From assembly GCF_000733945.1 (NCBI RefSeq), contig NZ_JPOL01000002.1, positions 2,915,001 through 2,979,000 on the forward strand: 64,000 bases of DNA, written 5' to 3'. Below the pieces are notes generated by a model, which worked only from the letters and a program-made list of their open reading frames with translations, searched no databases and had not been told where the DNA came from. This DNA is from Flavimarina sp. Hel_I_48. GTDB lineage: Bacteria > Bacteroidota > Bacteroidia > Flavobacteriales > Flavobacteriaceae. Position 1 is the first letter of the stretch; each line of letters starts with the position of its first letter. The position numbers were made by a program, and so were the translations under genes. Shown here piece after piece: positions 1 to 6,217 of this stretch.

Positions 1-1037
1 TCCAGTTTGCTCAGTTCCAGCCCGGCTTCCATGGCAGCGGCATCAGTAACGCTAATGAATTCCCCGCGTTTACTGCGGAAAAGATGCGCGTGCATAGGTC
101 CCACACCAGGATAATCAAGTCCGGCAGAAATGGAATACGGTTCTGTAATCTGACCATCTGGCGTTTGCATGAGCAGGGTCTTGCTTCCGTGAATAATGCC
201 TTCTTTTCCCAGAGCGGAAGTGGCTGCACTTTCCCCAGAATCAATCCCTTTTCCGGCTGCTTCCACGGCAATAATCCCCACTTCGGGATTATCCAGATAA
301 TGGTAATATATACCGGCAGCGTTACTACCGCCTCCCACGCAGGCCACCACATAATCTGGATCTTCCCGGCCTTCTTTTTCTAACAATTGTTTTTTGACTT
401 CCTGTGAGATCACACTTTGAAAACGCGCCACCATATCAGGATAGGGGTGCGGACCTACAACACTTCCTATAATATAATGGGTGTCGGTAGGATTACTGAT
501 CCAGTCGCGAATGGCCTCATTTGTGGCATCTTTTAAAGTTTTACTGCCAGATTCCGCCGAAATAACCTTCGCTCCCAGCATTTTCATGCGCGCCACGTTG
601 GGGGATTGCCTTTTGATATCTATCGCGCCCATATACACAATACATTCCAGTCCCATAAGCGCACAAACCGTTGCGGTGGCAACACCGTGCTGGCCTGCGC
701 CAGTCTCAGCTATGATACGGGTTTTGCCCAGCCGCTGCGCCATGAGGATCTGACCTATCGTATTATTCACCTTGTGCGCGCCGGTATGGCAAAGATCTTC
801 ACGTTTGAGATAAACTTTTGCGCCATATTTTTCTGAAAAGCGTTTTGCGTAATACAGCGGTGTAGGGCGTCCCACATACTCCCGAAGCAACTCTTGAAAT
901 TCTTTCTGAAAATCTTCGGTTTGCATGATTTCCAGATAATTCTGGCGTAGTTCTTCTACATTGGGATATAGCATTTCTGGGATATAAGCCCCACCAAAAT
1001 CGCCATAATATCCTTTCTCATCTACGTTATAGTTCAT
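1..1037 (-). CDS. trpB: Tryptophan synthase beta chain (partial, C-terminus off the window)
   Basis: PLP enzyme joining indole and L-serine to give L-tryptophan, last step of the pathway, working in the cytoplasm as an alpha2-beta2 complex with TrpA. Seen: translation from the ATG at 1037 starts [16 protein letters not shown] and stays open to the window edge (345 codons). The PLP-lysine motif HKVNN (Lys89) and the phosphate-binding GGGSNA stretch are present, as is the LKREDL segment. About 50 residues of the usual ~395 are missing because the window ends. It is the last visible gene of a minus-strand trpE-G-D-C-F-B operon, 85 bp after trpF; trpA would be expected next, outside the window. 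Confidence 0.97.
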
Positions 1038-1122
1038 CTTTTATATCTTAATTTTTTACTTCCACAAAAGCGGAAATCTATTTTTCTAGTATTGAGGATT
1101 CTAGTTTTTGCAAACTGCAACC

Positions 1123-1899
1123 TTAGACCTGCAATAGTTTTTCTTTAAAATCCCTCAACAGTTTCACATCCTTCGACCCGGGTTCTGTTTCAAATTTACT
1201 GTTTACATCAATGCCGTAAAGGGGCAAATCTGTTTTTGACAATTCTTTAAGCTTGTCTAGCTCCTGTGGACCTATGCCACCACTCAAAATAAACGGTTTT
1301 TTTGAAGGATATGCCTTTAAGACTGACCAGTCAAAGGTATACCCATTTCCTCCTTTTGCCTTTCCTTTTGTGTCAAAGAGAAATTTATCCACTAAGGGTT
1401 CATAATCTTTTAATATGGAAAAATTGAACTCGTCTTTTATACCGAAAACTTTCCAGACTTCGACAGGCTCAGTCCGGAGAACTTCGACAGGCTCAGTCCG
1501 GGGAACTTCGACAGGCTCAGTCCGTGGAACTTCGACAGGCTCATTCCGGGGAATTTTGACAGGCTCTGTCCGGGGAACTTCGATACGCTCAGCAAAGCTT
1601 AATTTGCTTTTTAGTTCGGCTTTTAATTTTTCACAGTATGCTGCCGATTCATTACCGTGTAATTGAATGATATTAAGTTTAAAATGGTCAATTTTTGCCA
1701 GAATATCACTGATTTCAGCATCTACAAATACGCCAACTTTTTTAATTTCTTCCGGCAATGCCTTCAGTTCTTCCGCAAAAGTTGCCTGCTCCTCACAATA
1801 CCGCGGACTGCCCTTATAGAATATAAAACCCAAATAATCTGGCTGAAGTTGGCCCACTTCAGCCATGTTCAATTTCATTCCGCAGATTTTAAGTCTCAT
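1123..1899 (-). CDS. trpF: Phosphoribosylanthranilate isomerase with an in-frame repeat insertion
   Basis: Converts N-(5-phosphoribosyl)anthranilate to the carboxyphenylamino-deoxyribulose phosphate; a cytoplasmic (beta/alpha)8 barrel. Seen: strand 1 KICGMK with the catalytic Cys, DYLGFIF, VGVFVD, IIQLHGNE, FLFDTKGKAKGGNGYTFDW with the catalytic Asp, ILSGGI and GIDVNSKFE near the C-terminus, so all barrel signatures are intact. At 258 residues it is about 45 longer than the usual 205-215. The excess is residues ~102-148, a run of 8-residue units of the type VEVPRTEP encoded by a 24-bp tandem repeat. The insert falls between helix 4 and strand 5, on the barrel face opposite the active site, so the enzyme may well still work (inference). 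Confidence 0.95.
   Translation of the reverse strand: MRLKICGMKLNMAEVGQLQPDYLGFIFYKGSPRYCEEQATFAEELKALPEEIKKVGVFVDAEISDILAKIDHFKLNIIQLHGNESAAYCEKLKAELKSKLSFAERIEVPRTEPVKIPRNEPVEVPRTEPVEVPRTEPVEVLRTEPVEVWKVFGIKDEFNFSILKDYEPLVDKFLFDTKGKAKGGNGYTFDWSVLKAYPSKKPFILSGGIGPQELDKLKELSKTDLPLYGIDVNSKFETEPGSKDVKLLRDFKEKLLQV
1457..1600. repeat. 24-bp tandem repeat array inside trpF
   Basis: Units start at 1457, 1481, 1505, 1529, 1553 and a degenerate one at 1577. Each contains the core TTCGACAGGCTCAG or a near variant and is exactly 24 bp, so copy number can change without shifting the trpF frame. The first three units are almost identical, and divergence increases toward 1600, as expected for an array growing at one end. 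There are no unique spacers, so this is not CRISPR. From memory, the core resembles a short interspersed repeat common in Bacteroidota intergenic DNA; that was not checked. Confidence 0.93.
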
Positions 1900-1947
1900 G
1901 ATATTTTTTTAAAGTTCCCGCCTTTCTTGAAGGGAAGGGCTTAATTA

Positions 1948-1998
1948 CACCTCTTTCAGCTTCGCTGAAATTTTCCCCTCATTGAAAAAGAGGGGAGG
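1948..1998. repeat. Two-hairpin interspersed repeat (family R2), copy 1
   Basis: Lies in the trpC-trpF spacer. It holds an inverted repeat around TTTCAGCTTCGCTGAAA followed by a second one of the form TCCCCTC...GAGGGGA. Copies with the same two-part layout occur at 4623-4674 and 25907-25961. A degenerate, related inverted repeat (TTCCCGCC...GGGAA) sits at 1916-1940. Confidence 0.85.
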
Positions 1999-2009
1999 CG
2001 TAAGACATT

Positions 2010-2822
2010 TCAGTTCCCCCTTTGGGGGCTAGGGGGATTTATTTTTGCAATAAACTCCTTCGCACTTTTGCCCGGATCATTGGTTTTCATAAAATTCTCA
2101 CCTATTAAAAATCCTTTATAACCATAAGGCTGCAGTTCTTGTATTGCGTTTATTGAACTGATCCCGCTCTCAGAAACCTTGACAAAATCATTGGGGATTT
2201 TATCAGAAAGGCTCTTGCTGATCTCGAGGCTCACCTCAAAGGTTTTGAGATTCCTGTTGTTCACGCCCAGCATATCCAGAGAAGGCATAATCGATTTTTC
2301 AAGTTCGTCAAGGTTGTGCACTTCGAGCAACACATCCATTCCCAACTGTTTTGCTAGTTCAGAAAAAGCTTTGATTTCGCTCTTTTCAAGCACTGCGGCG
2401 ATCAATAAAATAACATCTGCACCATAAGCTTTAGCTTCCAGGATCTGATATTCATCTATTATAAATTCCTTGCGCAATAGCGGAAATTTAACCGAAGCCC
2501 GCGCAATTAAAAGATCGTCCAGTGAACCACCAAAATATTTTGCGTCTGTTAAAACACTCATGCCACAAACCCCGGCCTGCTCATAACCCTGTGCCACATC
2601 CTGTACGTTGAGTCCATTATTGATGACCGACTTACTGGGTGAGCGGCGTTTGTGTTCAGCGATTATTCCAGAACTGCTTTCCCGTAAAATAGTGGCTAAA
2701 GATGCCGATTTTCGGTCAAAAAGCACCGATTTTTCGAGCTGTTTTACCGGAATTAATCCTTTTCTCAAAGCAACTTCCTTTCGTTTGTCTGCTACTATTT
2801 TATCTAGAATGTTCAAAATCAA
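2010..2822 (-). CDS. trpC: Indole-3-glycerol phosphate synthase
   Basis: Closes the indole ring, turning carboxyphenylamino-deoxyribulose phosphate into indole-3-glycerol phosphate; a cytoplasmic (beta/alpha)8 enzyme. Seen: EHKRRSPSKS near residue 56 (first catalytic lysine region), VLTDAKYFGGS, LLRKEFIIDEYQI with the catalytic Lys, LLEVHN, GVNNRNLKTFEV, VSESGI and GFLIGENFMKT, which together define the family. Length 270 is slightly above the usual ~260. The last nine residues (NPPSPQRGN) are encoded by a GC-rich interspersed repeat at 2014-2037, so the natural C-terminus appears to have been replaced or extended by that element. It lies between trpD (67-bp spacer) and trpF (110-bp spacer). 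Confidence 0.97.
   Translation of the reverse strand: MILNILDKIVADKRKEVALRKGLIPVKQLEKSVLFDRKSASLATILRESSSGIIAEHKRRSPSKSVINNGLNVQDVAQGYEQAGVCGMSVLTDAKYFGGSLDDLLIARASVKFPLLRKEFIIDEYQILEAKAYGADVILLIAAVLEKSEIKAFSELAKQLGMDVLLEVHNLDELEKSIMPSLDMLGVNNRNLKTFEVSLEISKSLSDKIPNDFVKVSESGISSINAIQELQPYGYKGFLIGENFMKTNDPGKSAKEFIAKINPPSPQRGN
2014..2037. repeat. GC-rich interspersed repeat (family R1) forming the trpC 3' end
   Basis: An imperfect palindrome built on CCCCCTTTGGGGG followed by CTAGGGGG. It overlaps the last codons of trpC. The same element is at 2895-2919, 4691-4712, 25865-25889 and 32897-32920. Confidence 0.9.
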
Positions 2823-2866
2823 TTATTATTACTATTTATATTTTTATTAAAGCCCTGTTTTATAAT

Positions 2867-2919
2867 TTCCCCTTCGGAGGTTAGGAGGATTAAATTCCCC
2901 CTTTGGGGGCTAGGGGGAT
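2867..2919. repeat. Family R1 repeat, degenerate copy plus intact copy, at the trpD 3' end
   Basis: A diverged copy (2867-2889, TTCCCCTTCGGAGG type) is followed directly by an intact copy (2895-2919) identical over its core to the trpC one. The intact copy encodes the last residues of TrpD. Another weak relative lies upstream of trpD at 3904-3927. Confidence 0.88.
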
Positions 2920-3894
2920 CAATGTATTCAGTTTCTCCAGCGCTTTTCCACTTAATAACGTTTCTTTTGCCAGTTCAAAACCAGCTTTTGGTTCTAATTT
3001 TTTAACGGTTGCGATAGCCATTCCTGCATTTGCAGAAACCACATTATTCTGAGCTTCGCTGCCTTTACCAGAAATCACTTTCATAAAAATCTCAGCCGAT
3101 TCTTTTACGCTTTCTCCGCCGTAAATGGCTTCTTCCTCGATTTCTGTTACTCCAAAATCTTCTGGAGACAGCATACGCTCGCTATTGTTTGTAATGGCCT
3201 TCGTTTTTCCGGTTAGGGCAATCTCGTCATAGCCGTCAAGCGCGTGCAGGATGGTAAAATTTTTATCGCCTTTTTGATACAAATAGCCATACATACGGGC
3301 CAGTTCCAGATTAAATACGCCCACCAACTGATTTTCTGGAAATGCAGGGTTTACCATGGGCCCCAGCATATTAAAGAAGGTTTTAACCGCAAGATCCCGG
3401 CGAATTGGGGCAACGTTTTTCATCGCAGGATGAAAGAGTGGGGCGTGCAATACACAAATCCCGGCTTCGTCCAGACAACGTTTCAGGAAATCCTTATCGC
3501 TGCTGAAACTAATCCCTAAATGTTCCATCACATTGCTGCTTCCACTCACCGAAGAAACGCCATAATTGCCATGTTTTGTGACGTTCACACCAGCACCGGC
3601 GGTCACAAATGAAGAAAGTGTGGAGATATTAAAAGTATTTTTGCCATCGCCCCCCGTGCCGCAAAGGTCAATGCTGTTGTATCCTTCAAAATCTACCGCG
3701 AGACAAAGGTCTAAAAGCGCATCACGAAAACCTTCCAGTTCCCCTATAGATACGCTGCGCATCATATAAACGGTCATAAAAGAAGCAATCTGGCTGGGAT
3801 TATATTTCCCTTCGGAAATGTTTACCAGCACCTCGCGCGCCTCTTGTTTGTCAAGCTGCTCGTGATTGATAAGTCTGTTTAATATATGTTTCAT
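2890..3894 (-). CDS. trpD: Anthranilate phosphoribosyltransferase
   Basis: Transfers the phosphoribosyl group of PRPP to anthranilate, second step of the tryptophan branch; a cytoplasmic homodimer. Seen: the PRPP/Mg loop CGTGGDGKNTFNIST at residues ~78-93, TKHGNYGVSS, the DLAVKTFFNMLGPMVNP segment and HALDGYDE are all diagnostic. Length 334 matches the family. The C-terminal tail LIPLAPKGGI is read from an R1 repeat, the same element that ends TrpC but in a different frame. It sits between trpG (70-bp spacer) and trpC. Confidence 0.97.
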   Translation of the reverse strand: MKHILNRLINHEQLDKQEAREVLVNISEGKYNPSQIASFMTVYMMRSVSIGELEGFRDALLDLCLAVDFEGYNSIDLCGTGGDGKNTFNISTLSSFVTAGAGVNVTKHGNYGVSSVSGSSNVMEHLGISFSSDKDFLKRCLDEAGICVLHAPLFHPAMKNVAPIRRDLAVKTFFNMLGPMVNPAFPENQLVGVFNLELARMYGYLYQKGDKNFTILHALDGYDEIALTGKTKAITNNSERMLSPEDFGVTEIEEEAIYGGESVKESAEIFMKVISGKGSEAQNNVVSANAGMAIATVKKLEPKAGFELAKETLLSGKALEKLNTLIPLAPKGGI

Positions 3895-3964
3895 TATTGC
3901 ACTCTAACTCCCTCCAATGAGGAGGATTTTATTATTTGATTTATATGCTATTCCGTGTTTTTTA

Positions 3965-4537
3965 TCAAGAAAACACCCAGTTTTCGATCATTTTCTTGCC
4001 TTCTGGTGTCAGTACAGATTCTGGATGAAACTGCACGCCGCGCAGGTCAAAGTTTCTATGGCGCAGCGACATGATCTGGCCGTTCACATCTGTTGCGGTG
4101 ATCTCAAGATCTTCTGGAAACTGGTCTGGGGAAACCACCCAGGAATGGTACCTTCCTATTTTAAACTCGCGATCTATATTTTTGTACAAAGGTTCGTCAT
4201 CAACGGTTTGCGTAGCGGTAGTCGCCACGCCGTGAAAAACCTTATCCAGATTGATCAGGCTTCCGCCGAAAACTTCTCCAATGGCCTGTTGTCCCAGACA
4301 AACGCCGAATATGGGTTTTTTCCCTGCATATTCTTTGATTATTGGTTTTAAGAGTCCGGCTTCATCGGGAATTCCGGGTCCTGGAGAAAGCAGGATTTTG
4401 TCATAGGCAGCAATTTCTTCAAGCGTTACTTTGTCGTTGCGCTTTACGGTAACAGCACAATCCAGCGCTTCCAGATAATGCACCAGGTTGTACACAAAAC
4501 TGTCGTAATTATCGATGACCAGTATTTTAATCCCCAT
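3965..4537 (-). CDS. trpG: Anthranilate synthase glutamine amidotransferase subunit
   Basis: Releases ammonia from glutamine and delivers it to TrpE for anthranilate formation. Seen: class I amidotransferase triad with Cys80 in GVCLGQQ and His171/Glu173 in VQFHPES, plus the oxyanion segment LSPGPGIPDEAG. The frame stays open upstream to ATGs at 4594 and 4618, but those 19-27 extra residues are encoded by repeat-like sequence (4531-4555) and do not resemble the family. I therefore take the ATG at 4537, which gives the usual 190 residues starting MGIKILVIDNYDSF. It follows trpE after 181 bp of repeat-filled spacer. Confidence 0.95.
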   Translation of the reverse strand: MGIKILVIDNYDSFVYNLVHYLEALDCAVTVKRNDKVTLEEIAAYDKILLSPGPGIPDEAGLLKPIIKEYAGKKPIFGVCLGQQAIGEVFGGSLINLDKVFHGVATTATQTVDDEPLYKNIDREFKIGRYHSWVVSPDQFPEDLEITATDVNGQIMSLRHRNFDLRGVQFHPESVLTPEGKKMIENWVFS

Positions 4538-4622
4538 CCCTTCCCCAGAGGGGAAGTGAGTCTGTTCTGATTGTGTCTTATCTTTATGCTTCATTGTTGA
4601 ATTTTCTAATTGCTTCAAAAAC

Positions 4623-4712
4623 CACCCCTCTTACAGCTTTGCTGAAATTTTCCCCTCTTAGAAAAGGAGGGGAGCTTTTTTCTTTTTTTATTCCCCCTTC
4701 GGGGTTAGGGGG
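4623..4712. repeat. R2 plus R1 repeats filling the trpE-trpG spacer
   Basis: An R2 copy (4623-4674, with AGCTTTGCT and TCCCCTC...GAGGGGA inverted repeats) is followed by an R1 copy (4691-4712, TTCCCCCTTCGGGG type). Together they occupy most of the intergenic DNA and can form three stable hairpins in the transcript. They are not followed by a clear U-run in the minus direction, so they are not obvious terminators; they could act in mRNA stability or processing (inference). Confidence 0.85.
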
Positions 4713-4718
4713 AGGAAT

Positions 4719-6116
4719 TTATATTTCCTCCGCCAGTTCAAGCGCGCGGGTGAGTGCGCCCAGTTTATTATAGACCTCCTGCAATTCGTTTTCCGGTTTG
4801 CTATCGCTTACCACACCGGCGCCGGCCTGATAGTGTAACTTATGATTTTTACTAAGAAAAGAACGGATAATGATCGCATGGTTAAAATCGCCGCTAAAGT
4901 CCATAAAACCGATCGCACCACCATAAAAATCTCGGTTTACGGTCTCATAATCTTCCAGCAACTGCATGGCGCGGTGTTTAGGCGCCCCGCTCAAAGTTCC
5001 CGCAGGGAACGTGTCTGCCACGACCTGTAGGGTGGAGGTCTGCGGATTTTTTGTCGCGGTCACTTTGCTTACCAAATGGATGACATGGGAAAAAAACTGA
5101 ACCTCCCGATACGTTTCCACTTTGACATCTGTACCGTTACGGCTTAGGTCGTTGCGGGCGAGATCTACAAGCATTACATGCTCGCTGTTTTCCTTTGCAT
5201 CTTCCGAAAGCGTCTTGGCCAGTGCGGCATCCTGCTCATCATTCCCCGAACGTTTAGTGGTTCCCGCAATGGGGTGAATTTCGGCTTTGCCTTCTTTTAC
5301 GACCAACTGTGCTTCTGGCGAACTTCCAAAAATCTTAAAATTCCCGTAGTCAAAATAGAAAAGATACGGGCTGGGGTTTACGCTGCGCAACGCGCGATAT
5401 ACATTGAACTCGTCACCGGTAAATCCCTGAGAAAAACGCTTAGAAGGGACAATCTGAAATACATCGCCGCGCTGGCAGTGTTTCTTGCATTTTATGACCA
5501 GTTCTTTATACGCTTCATCAGTAATATTGGATTCTGTCTCACCTTCCCGACTAAAATGGTATTCAGCGAAATTTTTGACCTTGAGTGCTTGTTCAATAGT
5601 GTCTAAATTATGCGTTTCCGTTGTACTGTGCGAAAACAGGTAGGCCTGATTATTAAAGTGGTTTATGGCTATAATATTGCCATAAACGGCATAATAAAGA
5701 TCTGGAATTTCAAGATCGCCTTTTTTCTTATGTATTTCTACCTGTTCAAAATAGCGTACTGCATCGTAGGACATGTAGCCAAAAAGCCCATTGTCAATTA
5801 CTTTATGATCGGTTTTTTCTGTAGTGAAGCTTTGGGCAAATTGCTCGAGGATTTTTACCACATCCGTTGATTGCTCAATTTTTGTAATGGTCTGTTTTCC
5901 ATCGGGAAATTCCTGAAAAATGGATTCGTTTTCTACTTTTATCGATGCAATGGGATTACAGCAGATATAACTGAACGTATTATCATTTGCCCGGTAGTCG
6001 CTACTTTCAAGCAGGAGACTGTTAGGGAACTTGTCCCGCAACCTAAGATACACTGAAACCGGTGTGATCGTATCTGCCAGTAATTTTTTGCTTTTGGTTT
6101 TAAGGCTGTACTTCAT
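4719..6116 (-). CDS. trpE: Anthranilate synthase component I
   Basis: Converts chorismate and ammonia to anthranilate, the committed and feedback-inhibited step. Seen: an N-terminal regulatory domain with LLESSD (the region where tryptophan binds in the family) and a C-terminal chorismate-binding domain with QIVPSKRF, FGSSPEAQL, HPIAGTTKRSG, LVDLARNDLSR, GTLSGAPKHRAM and YGGAIGF. Length 465 is normal for the short Bacteroidota form. It is the first structural gene of the operon, 136 bp downstream of the trpL leader peptide and 71 bp beyond the attenuator terminator. Confidence 0.98.
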   Translation of the reverse strand: MKYSLKTKSKKLLADTITPVSVYLRLRDKFPNSLLLESSDYRANDNTFSYICCNPIASIKVENESIFQEFPDGKQTITKIEQSTDVVKILEQFAQSFTTEKTDHKVIDNGLFGYMSYDAVRYFEQVEIHKKKGDLEIPDLYYAVYGNIIAINHFNNQAYLFSHSTTETHNLDTIEQALKVKNFAEYHFSREGETESNITDEAYKELVIKCKKHCQRGDVFQIVPSKRFSQGFTGDEFNVYRALRSVNPSPYLFYFDYGNFKIFGSSPEAQLVVKEGKAEIHPIAGTTKRSGNDEQDAALAKTLSEDAKENSEHVMLVDLARNDLSRNGTDVKVETYREVQFFSHVIHLVSKVTATKNPQTSTLQVVADTFPAGTLSGAPKHRAMQLLEDYETVNRDFYGGAIGFMDFSGDFNHAIIIRSFLSKNHKLHYQAGAGVVSDSKPENELQEVYNKLGALTRALELAEEI

Positions 6117-6187
6117 GTCTTCTCTTTCAATGGTTATCTTTTGTTACTTTCTGCTTCCAATCACTTTTTCCTCTTTCTCAGAAATGA

Positions 6188-6217
6188 AAAAGGCCCGTCG
6201 TGATTGACGGGCCTTTT
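6188..6217 (-). terminator. trp attenuator terminator hairpin
   Basis: On the minus strand a 12-bp perfect stem (AAAAGGCCCGTC with GACGGGCCTTTT) closes a six-base AATCAC loop and runs into a U-rich tract. It lies between the leader peptide and trpE, where a classical attenuator terminator belongs. The 5' arm and loop are also complementary to 6240-6251. Confidence 0.93.

Follow-up and report, generated by a model that had tools for sequence, protein, structure and literature searches.

The trpF gene of Flavimarina sp. Hel_I_48, which encodes a phosphoribosylanthranilate isomerase (PRAI), carries an in-frame array of 24-bp repeats in its helix 4-strand 5 loop, where some other Flavobacteriaceae TrpFs carry translated repeats of many other kinds. 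The gene lies in a 64,000-nucleotide stretch of contig NZ_JPOL01000002.1 (positions 2,915,001 to 2,979,000, assembly GCF_000733945.1), referred to here as the window and numbered from its first base. Our preferred explanation, which we regard as reasonably probable, is that this loop is a tolerant acceptor site for repeated landings of repeats of the repetitive extragenic palindrome (REP) kind, and that in the window a landed core has grown by 24-bp steps. The features concerned are as follows.

1123..1899, minus strand: trpF (phosphoribosylanthranilate isomerase), 258 aa, identified from the open reading frame (ORF), PF00697, and Protein Data Bank (PDB) sequence and fold matches; the insert covers residues about 103-146.
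1450..1593, minus strand: array of six 24-bp (8-codon) units, identified by Tandem Repeats Finder (1457-1592) and a unit breakdown; the last unit ends in native WK codons.
1570-1593, 1546-1569, 1522-1545, 1498-1521, 1474-1497, 1450-1473, minus strand: the array units in coding-strand order, from the unit breakdown.
1585..1644, minus strand: helix 4 (residues 86-105), the N-terminal-side border of the insert, from the predicted model.
1438..1461, minus strand: strand 5 (residues 147-154), the C-terminal-side border of the insert, from the predicted model and alignment.

Tandem Repeats Finder places the array at 1457-1592 with a period of 24, 5.7 copies, 88% matches, 0 indels, and a score of 216, in frame within a 258-aa ORF (1123-1899, minus strand), in agreement with a preliminary description of the sequence that had claimed five to six in-frame 24-bp units in trpF. 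The product scores 111.4 bits against PF00697 (PRAI; cut-off 22.7) and matches solved PRAIs by sequence, with 1dl3 (E 1.1e-15), 1pii, and 1nsj as the top Foldseek hits. The units translate as AERIEVPR, TEPVKIPR, NEPVEVPR, TEPVEVPR, TEPVEVLR, and TEPVEV(WK); a single base of the 24 separates unit 4 from unit 5, against 6 for units 1 and 2, and those near 1457 are the most alike, as had been noticed. The helix 4-strand 5 loop comprises 66 aa, compared with 21 aa in the nearest insert-free genome, which gives the approximately 45 extra residues first estimated. The predicted model likewise bears out the proposed insertion point: residues 106-146 lie between helix 4 (86-105) and strand 5 (147-154) and are without secondary structure, with predicted local distance difference test (pLDDT) values of 52-65 for the residue blocks in 101-140 and of at least 90 for 177 of the 258 residues. 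The presence of similar arrays in other, separately assembled genomes argues against an assembly error as the source of the window array.

The distribution of inserts was analyzed in an even one-per-genus draw of Flavobacteriaceae, which avoids choosing genomes by insert and yielded TrpF from 118 of 124 genomes, our own included; family- and class-level matches were found with one insert-free query. At least 8 extra residues are present at the helix 4-strand 5 loop in 21 of the 118 TrpFs and anywhere else in none (largest, 6 residues). An alignment of nearer relatives (101 of 106 unique TrpFs plus our own, 102 rows) contains an insert of 8 or more residues at the loop in 46 rows and elsewhere in 0. 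Among the controls from related loci, our own included, an internal insert of at least 4 residues is absent in trpC (105 rows), trpB (107), and trpD (93). No conserved non-repeat sequence was found at this loop among the orthologs, and all inserts of at least 8 residues in the family alignments fall within it. Across Flavobacteriaceae TrpFs from several sources, including a homolog list consisting of the best 120 of 7,578, the loop varies widely and contains many kinds of translated repeat. The preliminary description, which considered a single array, was therefore too narrow in scope, as other Flavobacteriaceae have other repeats in the same TrpF loop.

On a tree of the TrpF core, 20 changes are required for the 21 insert carriers, similar to the number obtained with shuffled labels (mean 19.6), and the well-supported branches alone force at least 6. 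Among the congeners, the nearest genome (G012) is without insert, showing the insertion to be lineage-specific, and others have VEVPALSA-like arrays or LVSAS or IERSRD peptides at the same place. The frequency of the insert among nearer relatives (46/102) could be taken to mean that the extra peptide is adaptive for TrpF, through stability, assembly, or regulation. However, the sequence, length, and repeat type of the insert vary between TrpFs that are at least 93% identical elsewhere, and the insert is predicted to be unstructured; we consider an adaptive role very unlikely, and the added peptide is probably without function in its own right.

The class sample outside Flavobacteriaceae contains an insert at this loop in 0 of 37 TrpFs, a count from matches in only 41 of 129 genomes in which divergent or absent TrpFs would go unseen; a hotspot extending beyond Flavobacteriaceae was accordingly rejected. 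Three single inserts of at least 8 residues are present elsewhere in TrpF in this class sample. In L324, a TrpF of another family within the class, a different loop holds a repeat-like insert of another kind (DNGQWTMDN...QLSIVN).

Part of the relatives' inserts have REP structure. The inserts were scanned for hairpins comprising [CT]GTC, an 8-9 bp stem, and a 3-6 nt loop, with 1 mismatch allowed, the rarer CCTC end lying outside the scan. In the relatives' locus set a tagged hairpin is present in 13 of 47 loops of at least 29 aa (34 without), and opposed, head-to-head hairpin pairs are present in 8 of the 47 (L097, L104, L123, L127, L131, L135, L136, and L138). In the family sample, where 4 of 118 TrpFs were skipped because the pattern missed their loop borders, a tagged hairpin was found in 4 of the 21 insert loops (2,364 nt; 17 without) and opposed hairpins in 3 of the 21 (L225, L266, and L280). 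As background, the scan scores in 2 of 93 insert-free loops (5,568 nt) and, outside the loop, in 7 of 114 genes (66,390 nt), and among simple shuffles in 1 of 1,050. By eye, other relatives' inserts resemble longer or decayed palindromes.

The dispersal of one such element was examined by searching for its core, TGCTGAACTNGTTTCAGCA, in 8 genomes picked since they or their close kin carry the element in trpF, the rate therefore being biased. With up to 1 mismatch the core occurs at 42 places (reversed control, 0), comprising 8 in trpF (G535 counted twice), 2 in leuS, 1 in a C-terminal tail, and 31 elsewhere, 28 of which are without an overlapping ORF of 110 aa (judged by ORFs rather than annotation). 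In two of the 8 genomes (G005 and G537) the sole copy is the one in trpF. Contigs C4 and C23 of genome G535 are near-duplicates that hold the same trpF region twice, which is probably an assembly matter.

CGTC-tagged REPs have been reported in Bacteroidetes and from inside the ORFs of various genes, with no transposase associated with them (PMC3733652). Part of the relatives' inserts resemble these elements, as described in that paper, in their CGTC/TGTC end, 8-bp stem mostly starting AT or AC, 5-nt loop, and head-to-head pairing. The bases after the stem may differ, the reported tail being CCA and those of the relatives' inserts reading CTCA, CACA, CGCA, or others. The same paper describes intragenic REPs in many genes at differing sites, with the exception of recB in two Xanthomonas, and negligible head-to-tail dimers (PMC3733652); in contrast to those scattered genes and sites, the inserts described here occupy one loop of one gene across a family. 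The window array differs from the reported elements in having neither tag nor stem and in being arranged head to tail. It is REP-like in its core and its place and is not a member of the CGTC-tagged REPs, an assignment that follows from the failure of its unit to show the defining features as tested (no tagged hairpin; fold z -0.05).

The pairing of the complete elements invites the explanation that the inserts are kept as RNA or DNA structures in the trp operon, acting for example in attenuation or mRNA stability. A complete head-to-head element is far more stable than its shuffles (DNA z -4.55), 94% of pairs are kept in 12 Muricauda/Flagellimonas inserts compared with 21-35% in slid versions, and repeats are also present in the operon spacers. 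However, the 12 inserts are still 94.2% paired when their 3' letters are shuffled, they contain only 1 two-sided change (a number reached in 326 of 500 shuffles), and their covariation score of 0.053 is reached in 47 of 500. No stable hairpin is formed by the window unit, by the VEVPVLSA-type unit (z -1.02), or by a single TGTCATTTCGAG piece (z 0.36), and window 1-6200 has no Rfam match. With covariation in the 12 inserts not exceeding that in shuffles and Rfam empty for this region, the RNA-structure reading was rejected, and retention of the inserts for their nucleic acid structure seems highly improbable.

The exact 14-base core of the window unit is present at 5 places in its own genome, 3 in trpF and 2 beside tRNA-Leu, the latter two lying 138 bp apart and adjoining both the tRNA-Leu and an ORF that we take to be integrase-like. 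The preliminary description had associated the core with Bacteroidota intergenic DNA; the window unit itself is not a dispersed intergenic repeat in its own genome. A related core, CTGAGC-NNN-GTCGAA, is present in 11 of the 13 genus genomes, at 47 places in all (reversed control, 2 places). Of these places, 30 have a locus: 16 lie clear of any 80-aa ORF, a single 600-aa ORF accounts for 6 (in six genomes), trpF for 1, and other ORFs for 7. The two copies beside tRNA-Leu form part of a 138-bp direct repeat (L001; own genome C2:2542073-2545086), which possibly represents the attachment-site remnants of an island.

Changes in loop length were assessed by comparing TrpFs outside the loop (117 of 121 sequences used). 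Outside the loop, the window TrpF shares 95-96% identity with P0001, from which it differs in length by 40 aa (five units), although the repeat may have collapsed in the 981-base contig that P0001 comes from. For P0021 and P0029, the stretches compared outside the loop show no difference, and the two TrpFs are 16 aa (two units) apart. Among pairs of unequal length with a core identity of at least 90% and at least 2 units each, the difference is a multiple of 8 in 15 of 27, the pairs not being independent. The variation in copy number that had been anticipated is thus present in close relatives, whose arrays often differ by whole 8-residue units.

Several observations weigh against the account we favor. 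The strict hairpin scan is satisfied by only four of the 21 family-sample inserts, and about 6 of the 21 are without a repeat recognizable by eye. Within the window array, the same scan detects no CGTC/TGTC-tagged hairpin in 1441-1610, and the unit folds no better than shuffles (DNA z -0.05), on which ground it was rejected as a hairpin. A search of the same genome for a 19-mer of the unit, at up to 3 mismatches, gave matches in trpF alone, which also answers the suggestion in the preliminary description to look for the unit inside other ORFs. A 24-bp tandem pattern (up to 1 mismatch; blind to arrays of other periods) matches 11 places in 7 of 397 genomes, comprising 7 in trpF (three genera), 1 in a topoisomerase gene, and 3 others, but its reversed control is noisy (9 places in 9 of 397 genomes), so that single matches mean little and it is the clustering in trpF that counts. 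The length difference is not a multiple of 8 in 12 of the 27 unequal pairs, implying that whole-unit slippage is not the sole process. A REP transposase was considered as mobilizing enzyme and rejected: PF01797 matches are present in 7 of 13 genus genomes (6 above cut-off, our own genome below cut-off only), and the three repeat cores tested are absent from all 11 PF01797 loci. Leucyl-tRNA synthetase and topoisomerase genes also hold such inserts, in single lineages; judged on the sequences compared, trpF is for this reason the strongest rather than the sole insertion site seen.

The confinement of the unit to trpF within its own genome, and its ordinary folding, would also suit a minisatellite of the ordinary kind, derived from the VE-rich native codons without involvement of a mobile repeat. 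We think this unlikely, as the core or a near form is also intergenic in the same genome and in the genus, strict CGTC hairpins are present in the same loop of relatives, and both kinds are mixed in one loop of congeners (L007 and L009). Because the unit is without a tagged hairpin, a better fold, or dispersal, the proposed descent of the window core from a mobile REP draws on the likeness of its core and on the relatives.

Preference for a target, in addition to tolerance, might also direct the insertions, for example through microhomology of the core GTCGAAGT with the native VE(V/I) codons before WKVF. In arrays of the window's own type and of the VEVPALSA type, WKVF is immediately preceded by a terminal VEV or something close to it, GTTGAA is present at the site in two insert-free genes (L010 and L025), and a single-copy state is present in L027 (ALSEVEVWKVF). 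On the other hand, palindromes without the core (HAELVSAS, SFRAQSRN, and NDEVISS types) are found in the same loop, and inspection by eye revealed no clear target duplication. Directed insertion of this kind appears rather improbable.

In the mechanism that we propose, short REP-kind repeats would land many times independently in the helix 4-strand 5 loop of Flavobacteriaceae TrpF, and the survival of only in-frame, stop-free landings would act as a filter by which intergenic DNA is turned into protein sequence. In the window lineage, a REP-like core (CTGAGCCTGTCGAAGT, read as TEPVEV) may have landed abutting strand 5 and then grown and shrunk by 24 bp, with the frame kept; we infer slippage as the means of growth, with unequal recombination as the other process that could produce such steps. 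The loop face in question lies away from the active site in triosephosphate isomerase (TIM) barrels. The loop would be tolerated both for this reason and for its position at the junction of two half-barrels, and such structural tolerance may be the reason for the choice of site. Tolerance of this loop is plausible given that part-barrel folding is discussed in PMC3741200, which has PRAI fragment work among its references.

A more far-reaching proposal is that the loop serves as a family-wide trap in which intergenic palindromes are captured, translated, expanded by 8 codons, and replaced, still today, the REPs being still mobile in Flavobacteriaceae and the site being a preferred target as well as a tolerant one. 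We offer this version tentatively and consider it doubtful; if true, nature would in effect have repeated an insertion experiment many times at the junction between the halves of a TIM barrel.

The likeness to in-frame palindromic elements drawn in the preliminary description is supported. Rickettsia palindromic elements (RPEs), as outlined in PMC10969869, are about 150 bp long, form ten families, encode a conserved peptide, and occur in many genes within a single genus. The trpF inserts resemble them as palindromic selfish elements that lie in frame within unrelated genes and are apparently compatible with folding, but comprise several repeat types at one site in many genera, with no single conserved peptide. 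The window insert consists of 24-bp units running head to tail over 136 bp, in a Leeuwenhoekiella-group genome, and does not have the features of an RPE. Palindromic amphipathic repeat coding elements (PARCELs; PMC2996958) are also tandem protein repeats of variable number encoded by palindromic DNA; here, the repeats are of 8 residues and reside in a housekeeping enzyme.

In-frame REPs and RPEs are thus already known from scattered genes, but such frequent insertion into one loop of a single gene is unreported among the matches listed. Repeats in trpF, or a trpF hotspot, are likewise not reported among those matches, and the terms "trp" and "anthranilate" are absent from the main text of PMC3733652, although its target-gene supplement (Additional file 3) may include trpF. 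Across a bacterial family, a single protein site here preserves the record of different repeats captured on many separate occasions, with the neighboring trp genes as clean controls. This raises the questions of how protein sequence arises from selfish DNA, where in a TIM barrel such DNA is accepted, and whether REPs that lack a known transposase are still mobile.

Outside trpF, two genomes of the Muricauda group have in-frame repeats in leucyl-tRNA synthetase, immediately ahead of ELNTMPGWAGSS (L352 and L364, each at about 1500), the identity of the L352 gene being confirmed by Pfam. The leuS gene was rejected as a second hotspot: judged by match span, none of 50 sampled genomes has an insert of at least 8, the largest net excess over the usual 171 codons being 7. 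A DNA topoisomerase gene of genome G150 (PF01131; L404:474-2837, minus strand) has a two-unit 24-bp array and further in-frame repeat-like sequence. Two further repeat families are located in or beside the spacers of the window's own trp operon (1947-1997, 2009-2049, 2861-2930, 4624-4674, and 4685-4725), one of which is read as the C-terminal ends of TrpC (NPPSPQRGN) and TrpD (IPLAPKGGI).
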